From Thermococcus sp. (lineage in GTDB: Archaea; Methanobacteriota_B; Thermococci; Thermococcales; Thermococcaceae), in contig NZ_JAMOQU010000009.1 of assembly GCF_027063845.1 (NCBI RefSeq), forward strand, positions 1-50,122: a stretch of 50,122 bases of DNA, in the 5' to 3' direction. How positions within the stretch are numbered: position 1 is the stretch's first letter; each line of letters opens with the position of its first letter. Positions 29,159 through 35,045 of this stretch are shown here, piece by piece. A program made the translations under genes and the position numbers. Under the pieces are notes generated by a model. It worked only from the letters and a program-made list of their open reading frames with translations. It was not told where the DNA came from and searched no databases.

Positions 29159-31672
29159 TCAGAAGGTGTAGTAGTCCACGCCTCCGCGCTCCTTCTCATG
29201 TCTCCGCTTCCTGCCCTCTTCGAAGTTCTTGTAGTACTCAATCATGTATGGCGTTATGCTGGGCTTGACTTTCTTCATGGCCTCCTCGAAGTCCCTCCTC
29301 GAAACCTTTAACCTTTCAAGGAACTCCTCGCTCTCGCTCTCAACGAGCTCGCTCGGAAGTTCGCGCATGACCCTGCGCATCGCTATTAATGCGGCTTCCC
29401 TGACCAGCGCCTCTAAGTCAGCTCCAGAGTAACCCTCTGTTTTCTTGGCGAGTTCGGCAAGGTTGACGTCCTTCGCGAGGGGGACGCGCCTCGTGTGGAC
29501 CTTCAGTATCTCCAGTCTCGCTTTCTCGTCGGGCGCCGGGACGAGCACGAGCCTATCGAATCTTCCTGGCCTGAGCAGGGCCGGGTCGATGATGTCCGGC
29601 CTGTTGGTGGCACCGATGACGACGACACCGCTGTTCCGCTCTATGCCGTCCATCTCGGTGAGGAGCTGGTTGATGAGCCTGTCCGTAACACGGTCGCCCT
29701 CCGCTCCTCTCGCGGGCGCTATCGCGTCAATCTCGTCGATGAATATCACCGTCGGAGCGGCCTGGCGAGCCTTCCTGAATATCTCCCTTATTCTCTTCTC
29801 GCTCTCGCCGACCCACTTGCTCAGAACTTCTGGCCCGCGGATTCCGATGAAGTTGGCCTCGCTCTCGTTCGCTACTGCCTTCGCGAGGAGGGTCTTACCG
29901 GTTCCCGGCGGACCGTAGAGGAGTATGCCCCTTGGGGGCGTTATGCCGAGCCTCTCGAACGCCTTTGGGTACTTGAGTGGCCACTCTACTGCCTCGCGGA
30001 GCTCCTGCTTGACATCCTCAAGGCCTCCGATGTCCTCCCAGCGGACGTTTGGCACCTCGAGGAGGACCTCCCTGAGCGCTGACGGCTCGACCATCTTGAG
30101 GGCCTCGTAGAAGTCCTCCTTCCTGACGCGGAGCTCCTGAAGGACCTCCGGCGGTATCTTCTCCTGCTCGGGGCTTATCTTGCCCTCGTTTATCAGCCTC
30201 CTCAGGACGACCATAGCGGCTTCCCTTGCGAGGGCCGCGAGGTCCGCTCCAACGAAGCCGTGCGTCTTGTCGGCAATCTCCTCGAGCATCTTGTCGATGA
30301 GCCTGCTTCTCACTTCAGCGTAGATTTCGCCCTCGCTCTTGAGGGCCTCCTTGGCCTCCCCTTCGTCCCTTGCCTCCTCAACCCTGCGAATCAGCGATTC
30401 AAGCTTTTTCTCATCGAAGGAGCCTTTGGACTTCATTTCCCTCAGAATCCTGAGGACGGTGGCCTTGTCGTAGTCCGGTTCAAGGGGCATTCCCCTGGTG
30501 TGTATCTGGAGTATCTCCTTTCTGCCCTGCTTGTCGGGAACGCCAACCTCAATCTCCCTGTCAAAGCGCCCAGGTCTCCTAAGCGCGGGGTCAATGGCGT
30601 CGGGCCTGTTGGTTGCGGCGATGACTATGACCTTGCCCCTGCTCTTCAGACCGTCCATCAGCGTTAGAAGCTGTGAAACAACCCTCTTCTCGACCTCTCC
30701 AACGACTTCCTCCCTCTTCGGAGCTATTGCATCAATCTCATCGATGAAGATTATGCTCGGGGCGTTCTCCTCGGCCTCTTTGAAAATCTCCCTTAGGCGC
30801 TCCTCACTTTCGCCGTAGAACTTGCTCATTATTTCTGGACCGTTGATGGCTATGAAGTGGGCGTTTGCCTCGTTCGCTACGGCCTTGGCCAGGAGAGTCT
30901 TACCCGTTCCCGGTGGGCCGTAGAGCAGGACGCCCTTCGGCGGCTCGATACCAAGCCTTTCGAAGAGCTCCGGGTGCTTGAGGGGAAGCTCGACCATCTC
31001 GCGAATCTTCTGAATCGCGTCGCTTAAGCCACCTATGTCCTCGTAGGTGACCTCCGGAATGCTCTCCTCGCGAACTTCAACCGCCTGCGGGAGAACCTCC
31101 ACTTCGGTGTTGTAGGTTATTTGAACTATTCCCTTGGGAACAGTGTTTACAACCACGAACTTGAGCTCGCCGAAACCGAGGGGCATTGCCTCGAAGAGAC
31201 CGCGCAGGAGGTCGTCGAAGGGGGAGCCGCCGTAGTAGGTCTCGTTCCTGTTGCTTGCAACTAGGAGGTCGCCCTTGACGACGGGCCTGCCGAGGAGGTT
31301 CTGCTTGACCAAATCGCCGGGAATCTGGATGAATACTCCCTTCTGGGCCGGTGCAAGCACTACTTTCTTCGCCTCCTGGACTTCGGCCCTTCTAACCGTC
31401 ACGTAGTCGCCTATGCTCACCCCCGCGTTCCTCCTGATGTAGCCGTCCATCCTGATTATGTCGAGTCCCCTGTCGTCCGGGTGCGGATTCGCCACTATCG
31501 CTGCTGTCGTCCTCTCGCCGACGAGCTCGACGATGTCGCCCGGTTCAACACCGAGTTGCCTTTGGTACTTCCTGTCAAAGCGAACTATTCCCCTGCCGAC
31601 ATCCCTTTTCAGGGCCTCGGCAACCCGGAGCTTAATCTCCTCAACTTTCTCTTCTTTTCCTCCGAATATCAT
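29159..31672 (-). CDS. cdc48: CDC48/VAT-family AAA+ ATPase
   Basis: An 837-aa archaeal p97 homologue that unfolds proteins as a hexamer, often for the proteasome. The N domain (1-200) has the double-psi barrel. D1 has Walker A GPPGTGKT at 252-259, Walker B FIDEID near 309-314 and the arginine-finger segment [10 protein letters not shown]2 has Walker A at 587-594, Walker B near 645-650 and its own RPGRFDR. A charged insertion of about 60 residues (roughly 400-460) lies before HGFVGADL in D1. The C-terminus ends VDYYTF. It overlaps the RNase H-fold gene as ATGA and is followed by a T5 tract. Confidence 0.97.
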
Positions 31673-32424
31673 CTTGAACGCCTCCTGTGAAGTTCAATCG
31701 CCTCCTCAAGGGTCAGGTTCCCGAGGGCAACCTCCCTTGCGAGGCTTGAGGGGATTGTTATGTTACCGCTCAGCTCCCTACTCCTCCTCTTAATATCCTC
31801 GATTTCCCTTTTCGTGGGTTCTTTTACCTCAAGGAGCTCCCCTATCGTCGTTTCCCTTCCGCCCCTCAGGCCGATGTTGATTGACGCAACTATATCAACG
31901 ACCGAGGAGCTTTCGATTCCTCCAACTTTTGGCGTCGTTCTGAACTCGTTGACGACGATTATCGGGTAATCGTAGCCGAGCATCTCGCCGAGGGCCTTGA
32001 GGGTCATCGTCCTGTGCCTTTTGGCGCCGTGGCCGATTTTTATCCTCGCACCTGGGTACTTCTCAAGCAGGTCAACAACGATTTCAACGTCCCTCGGACT
32101 CCCAAGGCGGTGGACCTCTATAACCCTCCCATCAGCCACCACGCTCAAACCGGGTCTCGCTCCGGGGTCTATTGCGATGAAGACGTTCTTAAACCTCTCC
32201 CTCCCTTCGAGCTTCGCGAGGAGTTCGTCTATGAAGTTCTCGTCGTGAACGATGACCTTAACCGGGAAGTCCACCTTATCCCTCTCACCCGTCAGGACGA
32301 CCTCAACGTCGTAGGGAATCCTCTCGCCAACGCGCAGGCTCAGGAAGGGGATTCGGTACTCCTTCAGGACCTTTGTTGCGGTGTAGTAGACCCGCGCGTC
32401 TCCTGTGACAATCGCAACCCTCAT
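31669..32424 (-). CDS. RNase H-fold protein coupled to CDC48
   Basis: A 251-aa protein. The N-terminal part (1-80) is a small alpha/beta region ([18 protein letters not shown]). The middle has an RNase H/RuvC-like strand, [23 protein letters not shown], with KIGHGAKRH and [11 protein letters not shown] further on. The C-terminus is helical and charged. Asp in the DPG motif could be catalytic, but the full acidic set cannot be confirmed by eye. The ATG at 32424 follows GTGGAGACC, and GGTTTATATCC near 32445-32455 is its TATA. The stop overlaps the cdc48 start by 4 bp, so the two are translated together. Confidence 0.7.
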
Positions 32425-32502
32425 GGTCTCCACTTCTCACGGGGATATAAACCTTTTTCGAAATCCCATCGGGAGCGTTCAAGCCTTTTAAACTTTTGGA
32501 AT

Positions 32503-32514
32503 AAAGTTTATAGG
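32503..32514 (+). promoter_or_regulatory. TATA box of the acidic small-protein gene
   Basis: AAAGTTTATAGG, about 33-44 bp ahead of the ATG at 32547. It supports real transcription of the 46-codon reading frame. Confidence 0.45.
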
Positions 32515-32546
32515 TCATTGAACTAAATTCCGGGCGAGGGGAGGGT

Positions 32547-32687
32547 ATGGAGCCACCCAAGAAGAAGAAAGTGATAGATGAAGAAGAGGAGTTCCTCGAC
32601 GAGGAGTTCGAGCTGGAGGAGTGGGAGGACGAGGACTGGGAGGAAGAGTGGGAGGACGAAGACTGGGAAGATGAGGACGAGTGGTGA
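32547..32687 (+). CDS. 46-aa acidic Trp-rich protein
   Basis: A very short gene: MEPPKKKKVID followed by about 35 residues made almost only of Glu, Asp, Trp, Phe and Leu, with five Trp spaced in a W-E-D-E-D-W pattern and a final EDEDEW. Support: ribosome site GAGGGGAGGG just before the ATG, a TATA box at 32503, a clean TGA, and placement between divergent transcripts. Size and composition recall DSS1/Sem1, the acidic Trp/Phe-rich proteasome-lid peptide, but low complexity alone could give that likeness. It may mimic DNA or bind a basic protein. Overlooked easily because of its size. Confidence 0.65.
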   Translation: MEPPKKKKVIDEEEEFLDEEFELEEWEDEDWEEEWEDEDWEDEDEW

Positions 32688-32760: not shown

Positions 32761-33963
32761 ATGGCGTTCCTCAAAGTCGTGCCCCTTGAAAAGGCCCTTG
32801 AGGTCATAGACTCCTTCCCGCTCGAACCGGAAGTCGAGAGGGTTCCTATTTCTGAGGCCCTCGGCAGGGTTCTTGCAGAGGATATCGTTTCGCCGATAAA
32901 CGTGCCCCCCTTTGACAGGGCCACCGTTGACGGCTACGCGATTAGGGCAGAGGACACCTTCATGGCGAGCGAGAGCGAGCCCGTCAGGCTCAAGGTAATC
33001 GGCGAGGTGAACGCAGGTGACTATCCCGACTTCGAGCTGAGGCCCGGCGAGAGCGTCTACATCTCCACCGGAGCGCCCCTCCCGAAGGGCGCCGACGCGG
33101 TGATACAGTTCGAGGACGTTGACAGGGACAGCGACGAGGTAATCATCTACAAGCCCGCCTATCCTGGTCTCGGTGTCATGAAGGCCGGAGCCGACATACC
33201 TGCCGGCAAGCCCCTCCTGAAGCGCGGGACGAGGCTCGGCTTCAAGGAGACGGCCCTTCTATCTGCCGTTGGTTTGGCAGAGGTTCCCGTCTTCAGGAAA
33301 CCGAAGGTTGCCGTCATAAGCACCGGAAACGAACTCGTTCTCCCGGGCGAGGAGCTAAGGCCGGGCCAGATTTACGACATCAATGGAAGGGCAATAGCCG
33401 ACGCCGTCAGGGAGCTTGGAGGTGAGGCGGTTTTCCTCGGCATAGCCAGGGACGACCGCGAGAGCCTGAAGGCCCTGATAGAGAAGGGTGTTGAGTGCTG
33501 TGACATCGTGCTCCTCAGCGGTGGCGCGAGCGGTGGGATAAGGGATTTGACCAGCTCGATAATCGAGGAGCTCGGCGAGGTCAAAATCCACGGCATAGCG
33601 ATTCAGCCAGGAAAGCCGACGATAATCGGCTTGATAGACGGAAAACCGGTCTTCGGTCTGCCCGGTTATCCCACGAGCTGTCTGACGAACTTCACCCTGC
33701 TCGTCGCCCCGCTCCTGAGAAGGCTCATCGGAAGGGAGAGAGAGGTCAGGAAGGTCAAAAAGAGGCTTGCCCACAAGGTCTTCTCGGTAAAGGGCAGGAG
33801 GCAGTTCCTCCCGGTGAGGATTGAGAGTGATAAGGCAGTTCCAATACTCAAGGGAAGCGGTGCCGTCACGAGCTTTATCGATGCGGACGGCTTCATCGAG
33901 GTTCCCGAGAACGTGGAGATATTAGAGGCCGGGGAAGAGGTTGAGGTTACATTCTTTGGCTAA
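32761..33963 (+). CDS. moeA: Molybdopterin molybdenumtransferase MoeA
   Basis: A 400-aa MoeA that inserts molybdate, here probably tungstate, into molybdopterin for enzymes such as ferredoxin oxidoreductases. Motifs: PPFDRATVDGYAIRAEDT near residue 49, STGAPLPKGADAVIQFED, ISTGNELV, YDINGRAIADAVRELGG, LSGGASGGIRD and FGLPGYPTSCLTNF; the C-terminal barrel follows. It starts right after GGTGATAGA with a TATA (CCATTTATACGCC) near 32730. The end overlaps the convergent AAA gene by 4 bp. Confidence 0.96.
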   Translation: MAFLKVVPLEKALEVIDSFPLEPEVERVPISEALGRVLAEDIVSPINVPPFDRATVDGYAIRAEDTFMASESEPVRLKVIGEVNAGDYPDFELRPGESVYISTGAPLPKGADAVIQFEDVDRDSDEVIIYKPAYPGLGVMKAGADIPAGKPLLKRGTRLGFKETALLSAVGLAEVPVFRKPKVAVISTGNELVLPGEELRPGQIYDINGRAIADAVRELGGEAVFLGIARDDRESLKALIEKGVECCDIVLLSGGASGGIRDLTSSIIEELGEVKIHGIAIQPGKPTIIGLIDGKPVFGLPGYPTSCLTNFTLLVAPLLRRLIGREREVRKVKKRLAHKVFSVKGRRQFLPVRIESDKAVPILKGSGAVTSFIDADGFIEVPENVEILEAGEEVEVTFFG

Positions 33964-35045
33964 ACGCCGTACTCCCTCGCCCACTTTTCGTATTTCTTCA
34001 GCAGTTCCCTCCTGATGGGACTCTTTACCCTTTTGAACGCGTAGCGGAAGTCCTTTGCCTCAAGGGGCCTTATCGTGAGTTCCTTCCCCGCTATCGAGCC
34101 CACCTTTAGGGGGTCGCTCAGCTCGGGGTTCATCTCCTCCAGCATGTGGAGAACCGCGAAGGTGCAGGCGTTAGCTATCTCCCTTCCCGAGTAGAGCCTT
34201 CTTACCGCTACCCTAGCCAGGGATTCCAGCGTTACCCTCAGGGGAAGCCCCCGCAGGTGAATCGCGAAGATTTCTCGTGCGCCTTCCTCATCCGGCAACG
34301 GCACGTAAATCCTAAGCGGGAAGCGGGATAACATGGCTTCGTCGAGGTCCCAGGGTGCGTTGGTCGAAGCGAGCGTGATTACCCTCCCGGAGTCCTGAAA
34401 GCCATCCATCTCGGCCAAAATCGTGCCCAGGAGCCTCCTGCCGGCGTCCTCCATCGAGGAACGCTTCATTGCGAGCGCATCAAACTCGTCGATGAAAACG
34501 ACGCTTGGAGCCTTCTGCCTCGCGAGGGCGTAGATTGACGACGCTATCTTGCTCGACTCGCCGAAGTACTTGCTGAGGACATCGCTGACCTTGACGCCGA
34601 TAAAGGTGGCCTTCATACTACCGGCGAGGGCCTTTGCGAGGAGTGTCTTTCCCGTTCCGGGCGGGCCGAAGAGGAGGATACCTTTCCAGGGCTTGAAGTT
34701 TCCGGGAACCTTCGCCATCGTCATTCCGACGGCCTGGGCGAGGAGCTTTTTGGCTTCCTTCAGCCCGCCGACGTCCTCCCAGGTTACGTTGGAGGTAGTA
34801 ATTAGCCTCTCAACCCCGTTCGAGCGCTTTTTAACGTCCACCTCGACGTTCTCTGCCTTCCTTTCCCAGTCCTCAGCCAGCTTGAGGTAGTAATGTGAGA
34901 ACTGCAACTCCTCGGATGCGAGCTTTCTCAAGAGGCCGGCGCACTGGAGGGCGAAGAAACGCGCCTTTCCCGCGTTGCCCTCCTCAAGGGCCCTCTCGTA
35001 GAGGCGCTCGTACCTGTGGAGAAGCGACGAGTAAGCTACCTTCAT
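33960..35045 (-). CDS. MIT-like plus AAA ATPase (Vps4/katanin-type)
   Basis: A 361-aa single-ring AAA protein. Residues 5-66 look like a three-helix MIT domain (RYERLYERAL, KARFFALQCAGLLRKL, YYLKLAEDWERKAENV). The AAA module has Walker A GPPGTGKT (127-134), Walker B VVFIDEFDAL (182-191), sensor STNAPWDLDEA and the finger SRFPLRIYVPLP (Arg241). The C-terminal helix DFRYAFKRVKSPIRRELL followed by KKYEKWAREYG is the pattern seen in katanin, spastin and Vps4. No ESCRT-III-like gene is in the window. It stands alone behind moeA. Confidence 0.8.
   Translation of the reverse strand: MKVAYSSLLHRYERLYERALEEGNAGKARFFALQCAGLLRKLASEELQFSHYYLKLAEDWERKAENVEVDVKKRSNGVERLITTSNVTWEDVGGLKEAKKLLAQAVGMTMAKVPGNFKPWKGILLFGPPGTGKTLLAKALAGSMKATFIGVKVSDVLSKYFGESSKIASSIYALARQKAPSVVFIDEFDALAMKRSSMEDAGRRLLGTILAEMDGFQDSGRVITLASTNAPWDLDEAMLSRFPLRIYVPLPDEEGAREIFAIHLRGLPLRVTLESLARVAVRRLYSGREIANACTFAVLHMLEEMNPELSDPLKVGSIAGKELTIRPLEAKDFRYAFKRVKSPIRRELLKKYEKWAREYGV

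Follow-up and report, generated by a model that had tools for sequence, protein, structure and literature searches.

An acidic Trp-rich miniprotein family was found that appears to be specific to the Thermococcaceae and is apparently universal there. Its starting point was a 46-aa frame in the window, a 50,122-nucleotide stretch of Thermococcus sp. DNA. Members are present in 89 of 94 Thermococcaceae genomes, distributed over all six genera, and in all 74 good assemblies (completeness ≥ 90% and contamination ≤ 5%), counted as frames read from genome DNA rather than as profile matches. The proteins are most plausibly disordered, multivalent acidic-aromatic ligands or chaperones for basic or nucleic-acid-binding proteins, a tentative reading to which a probability of roughly 0.42 is assigned.

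The 46-aa gene and its surroundings

The frame (coordinates 32547–32687, + strand) translates to MEPPKKKKVIDEEEEFLDEEFELEEWEDEDWEEEWEDEDWEDEDEW, a protein with a computed mass of 6.0 kDa and an Asp plus Glu content of 61%. It has an M-x-P-P-K-K-K-K head and an acidic tail that ends in Trp. The original prediction described a patch of four Lys residues followed by Glu/Asp with five regularly spaced Trp residues, and this description is accurate, as Lys occupies residues 5–8 and the five Trp residues follow one another at spacings of 5, 4, 5 and 6. When the tail was shuffled 20000 times, all Trp spacings fell in the range 4–6 in 62 cases.

When the sequence was compared with five close relatives of equal length (141 bases, so that single dN/dS values are rough), the substitutions at codon positions 1/2/3 were 1/0/3, 1/0/6, 0/0/4, 2/0/14 and 2/1/13, with 2–4 amino acid differences from each relative and dN/dS values of 0.017–0.231. 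As these relatives differ almost only at third codon positions, the frame is, judged from sequence, a real gene under purifying selection; such a third-position bias would be unexpected for an RNA element or for the antisense frame. The frame had been called a real-looking gene with a ribosome site and a TATA element, and its clear conservation in related genomes bears this out.

The predicted expression signals are also in place. A purine-rich stretch resembling a ribosome-binding site, GAGGGGAGGGT (32536–32546, + strand), abuts the ATG; the sequence GAGGGGAG(G/A)GT was found in 7 of 10 compared sequences, counting that of the window. Further upstream is the putative BRE/TATA-like promoter element TTTGGAATAAAGTTTATA (32495–32512, + strand), whose AATAAAGTTTATA has its last base at 32512, 34 bases before the start codon. 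A promoter-like element of the divergent neighbouring gene (32446–32463, − strand) forms an inverted repeat with 32495–32512, with 83% complementarity. The two divergent elements (32446–32512) make up an 18-nt inverted repeat in which 31 nt separate the arms.

The divergent neighbour (31669–32433, − strand) encodes a 254-aa protein with no Pfam or NCBIfam match, for which AlphaFold2, run on this protein alone, gave a mean pLDDT of 50.4, a model of too low quality for a fold search. It is present in 91 of the 94 Thermococcaceae genomes, and this 254-aa protein, encoded upstream of CDC48, can be regarded as a core protein of the Thermococcaceae without a Pfam or NCBIfam family. The gene for a CDC48 family AAA ATPase (29159–31672, − strand; TIGR01243, 1314 bits) follows, and its first bases overlap the 3' end of the gene for the 254-aa protein. 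The miniprotein gene had been placed divergent from a CDC48 operon, and the operon does lie opposite, but the nearest divergent gene is that for the 254-aa protein, not CDC48. The next gene downstream (32761–33963, + strand) encodes a MoeA-type molybdopterin biosynthesis protein but is not a constant neighbour, as MoeA is ~200 kilobases or more from the miniprotein locus in four genomes (G019, G021, G030 and G033). A gene for a 361-aa AAA ATPase (33960–35045, − strand) with a Vps4_C match of 26.6 bits (cut-off 21.3) lies near CDC48 and is convergent with MoeA.

Distribution of the family

A first regular expression detected frames in 77 of the 94 Thermococcaceae genomes and 63 of the 74 good assemblies. 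When the expression was relaxed and applied to the misses other than G010 (16 of 17), as well as to five genomes already counted, 12 more genomes were gained, including 11 good assemblies. The five genomes in which no member was found (G010, G046, G051, G052 and G062) are each less than 90% complete. A truncated frame (L180, genome G029) and a short frame (L119, genome G078) were left uncounted, and both genomes have another member. Two distinct members occur in at least 12 of the 89 genomes.

A homology search with the window protein identified 39 of the 94 genomes and a profile search 60 of the 94 (73 of the 115 genomes of the window's phylum), and these searches undercount the family, probably owing to composition correction. 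DNA patterns for the MxPPKKK start and for Trp-acidic units matched 79 and 74 of the 94 genomes, respectively, with chance matches included (some in the former case), and supplied most of the further loci. Across the 115 genomes of the phylum, 5 of 12 genera were matched at E values up to 1, and all belong to the Thermococcaceae.

The MxPPKKKK DNA pattern was also used in a scan of GTDB contigs, where it matched at least 25 stretches (near records may be left out), and complete Thermococcus genomes are absent from these matches. Family members account for 11 of the 25 (L133, L140, L141, L142, L145, L147, L148, L150, L151, L152 and L154), all under the titles Thermococcus, Thermococci or Thermococcales, and 13 have no acidic Trp tail. 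The remaining stretch is a 32-aa frame, MKPPKKKKKVEVEEEEEEWNEEEWDDDEDEAN, of a Heimdallarchaeota genome (accession number CP070695.1; L130, 2041–2139, − strand), which has an acidic Trp tail and a head-and-tail layout like that of the family. Among 227 genomes of the phylum of this isolated case, the pattern was found in 8, and the acidic Trp tail in the Heimdall frame alone; the family profile missed that frame and matched 5 of the 227 genomes at E values of 0.1–0.8, always within frames of 146–427 aa. The layout of the Heimdall frame is striking, but convergence or chance is likely and the frame was treated accordingly. One viral contig matched the MxPPKKKK pattern, in a sequence without the acidic Trp tail.

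No match exceeded the curated cut-off in Pfam or in NCBIfam (searched with the window protein alone), and no PHROG reached a significant E value (best 0.49). The best Pfam match of the window protein, MSG_insertion, scored 13.5 bits, well short of its cut-off (24.8). PDB sequences gave no match to the window protein at E values up to 10 and a single match to the family profile, a centrin (E 0.017) over profile positions 1–21 only. As no paper on an acidic Trp-rich family of this kind was found in the portions of the literature searched, the family is regarded as undescribed in the protein-family libraries and literature covered.

Genomic position of the family members

In 38 of the 41 match rows of the homology search, the member is divergent from the 254-aa gene at ~70–318 bases (distances worked out by hand from match positions), and the other three are weak matches inside frames of 310–426 aa. 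This is the position in most Thermococcus. A second type of member, of the form MY(Y)PPKKKVQPK... (MYYPPKKKVQPK...EFEPLDAVEEAYE...), is flanked by a threonine-synthase-like gene on one side and an MFS transporter gene on the other (L167, 1031–1201; L234, 1321–1530; L238, 1273–1569; L241, 1485–1775). Several Thermococcus genomes yielded this type alone, and its C-terminal residue is mostly Asp or Glu instead of Trp. In genus g3, which its neighbouring genes suggest is Pyrococcus-like, the frame is between dihydropteroate-synthase-like and NIP7-like genes (L222–L226); frames were also read in the g3 genomes G011 and G012, and the Pyrococcus-like genomes with a frame read number eight. Further members are upstream of a PiT-type phosphate permease gene in genera g5 and g6 (L184 and L178) and after an ABC transporter gene in genome G001. 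Apart from MoeA and CDC48, the neighbours are named for what we take them to be from their sequences. In L222, the acidic frame (1396–1590) overlaps the start of the NIP7-like gene (1580–2080), suggesting that translation of the two may be coupled.

No miniprotein frame was found beside the 254-aa gene in L080 and L082 (both Pyrococcus-like), L084 (genome G024) or L090 (genus g5). Genomes lacking the CDC48-side copy, such as G020, G024, G028, G068, G069 and G072, have a member elsewhere, which would be in keeping with a requirement for one copy. The family has no constant neighbour, the CDC48 region included, and the genes around its members point to no consistent pathway.

These positions bear on two explanations. 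The earlier suggestion that the protein is a specific adaptor or regulator of CDC48 draws on the divergent arrangement in 38 of 41 match rows and on the near-identical core elements shared by both divergent promoters. However, the frame is missing from that place in the Pyrococcus-like, g5 and G024 loci above and found elsewhere instead, as it also is in G001, and the presence of CDC48 beside the 254-aa gene was checked in the window only. The case for a functional tie to the CDC48 operon is thereby weakened, and an adaptor of this kind is quite improbable. The second explanation, suggested by the five Trp codons of a short frame that precedes another gene, is a leader peptide controlling that downstream gene. 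It is close to refuted, as the downstream gene varies (MoeA, MFS transporter, phosphate permease or NIP7-like), the downstream genes read include none for Trp synthesis, and conservation covers the acidic residues and not Trp alone.

Architecture, likeness to known proteins and possible function

The common layout is an M-x-P-P-K-K-K head (MxPPKKKK or close variants) followed by a Glu/Asp tail with Trp residues mostly 4–6 apart. In an alignment of 30 members, P4, K5, K7, E14, W31, E32, W35, E38, D39 and W40 are invariant. The 96 distinct members are 41–71 aa long, with a median of 5 Trp residues and a median net charge of −26, and 74 of them have a C-terminal Trp. A basic residue beyond position 18 occurs in only 4 of the 96, and the residue preceding Trp is Asp or Glu in 493 of 517 cases. 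Trp spacings of 3 or less make up 2.6% of 421 (2.9% of 174 among 42 less similar representatives), compared with a mean of 35% and a minimum of 28.5% in 500 sets of shuffled tails. As short spacings are far rarer than in shuffled tails, the even spacing looks selected rather than a by-product of composition. AlphaFold2, run on 12 aligned members, returned one helix (residues 6–42) with a mean pLDDT of 67.7; this low-confidence model is uninformative, though it leaves room for a helical form, which would speak against disorder.

That the Trp spacing is kept while length varies from 41 to 71 aa is easier to reconcile with a disordered multivalent ligand than with a folded domain. In such a ligand, the acidic stretch would imitate a polyanion, and the evenly spaced Trp residues could make several weak hydrophobic contacts. 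The Lys head may bind the tail of its own or of a sister chain, or orient the protein on its target. Abundant basic or nucleic-acid-binding proteins, chaperoned or held off nucleic acid, would be the likeliest targets, though basic-protein targets are proposed from charge alone. Acidic disordered histone chaperones of the prothymosin-alpha type likewise combine a highly acidic chain with a short basic patch; to our knowledge, they are not homologous to the miniprotein and have no Trp array.

Another possibility is that the protein mimics DNA or an SSB tail. The acidic tail with its C-terminal aromatic residue would then regulate one OB-fold protein or other DNA-binding protein by filling its nucleic-acid cleft. 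The acidic tails of bacterial and phage SSB proteins end in an aromatic residue and occupy the nucleic-acid cleft, and the extreme acidity and the C-terminal Trp of 74 of the 96 members agree with this. However, the type found between the threonine-synthase-like and MFS transporter genes mostly ends in Asp or Glu, and none of the loci read had a DNA-protein gene as a neighbour. The miniprotein also differs from SSB-type tails in standing alone and in having several Trp residues and a Lys head. Mimicry of this kind is thus considered unlikely.

Membership of DSS1/Sem1 is not supported by sequence. PF05160 (DSS1_SEM1) was over its cut-off in none of the 94 genomes, a result without a positive control as 14 control genomes also gave none; its 8 weak matches were not at miniprotein gene positions, and composition correction may cost sensitivity. 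No DSS1_SEM1 match was obtained when the 30 members were compared with Pfam at E values up to 10. In DSS1/Sem1, a helical C-terminal segment follows the acidic motifs. The window protein and most members lack such a segment and end in the acidic Trp array, with nothing after it, and the miniprotein differs further in starting with PPKKKK.

A likeness in composition had been predicted, and this was found to go further than composition. The disordered ubiquitin-binding motif (DisUBM) of Dss1 is described in PMC9381478 as X{W}XXX{W}X, where X is acidic and Trp is preferred, with tandem copies favouring chains. The miniproteins resemble DSS1/Sem1 in being small and very acidic, with Trp in an acidic context and acidic aromatic-xxx-aromatic units, which 78 of the 96 members contain; in 500 shuffles, the number of such members averaged 40.6 and never exceeded 54. 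In the window protein, W31-EEE-W35 is the one such unit. This is a likeness of mechanism that is possibly convergent, as a shared motif does not amount to shared descent.

An archaeal counterpart of the DisUBM, in which the WxxxW units would bind an archaeal ubiquitin-like modifier of the SAMP/MoaD/Urm1 type and pass the proteins so marked on to CDC48 or to the proteasome, would account for these units and for the location of most Thermococcus copies beside the 254-aa gene. However, no PF05160 match exceeded its cut-off in the 94 genomes, the family spacing is usually 4–6 (3–5 residues between Trp) whereas the motif prefers 2–3, and the Pyrococcus-like genus, among others, does not retain the position on the CDC48 side. 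This counterpart is therefore rather doubtful. Its fullest form, a universal Thermococcales equivalent of Dss1, by convergence or by descent too old to trace, that binds ubiquitin-like modifiers through tandem disordered motifs and links conjugates to CDC48 or the proteasome, is more improbable still.

The Thermococcales PCNA inhibitor TIP is likewise a small protein found only in this order, described in PMC4929162 as a 64-aa protein that has a possible PIP motif at its N-terminus and a C-terminal half of partial PH-like character. Judged by eye against that description, the 46-aa sequence, a Lys head followed by an acidic Trp array, has neither a PH-like half nor a PIP-like motif and does not match TIP as described.

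The shifting genomic position of the miniprotein gene separates its function from any single operon. Trypsin would release most of the window protein as a single 38-residue peptide consisting mainly of acidic residues and Trp (computed), thus standard proteomics would tend to miss it. A protein that is present in all 74 good assemblies, under strong purifying selection and without a profile in Pfam or NCBIfam is likely to be a missing part of a well-used model group.
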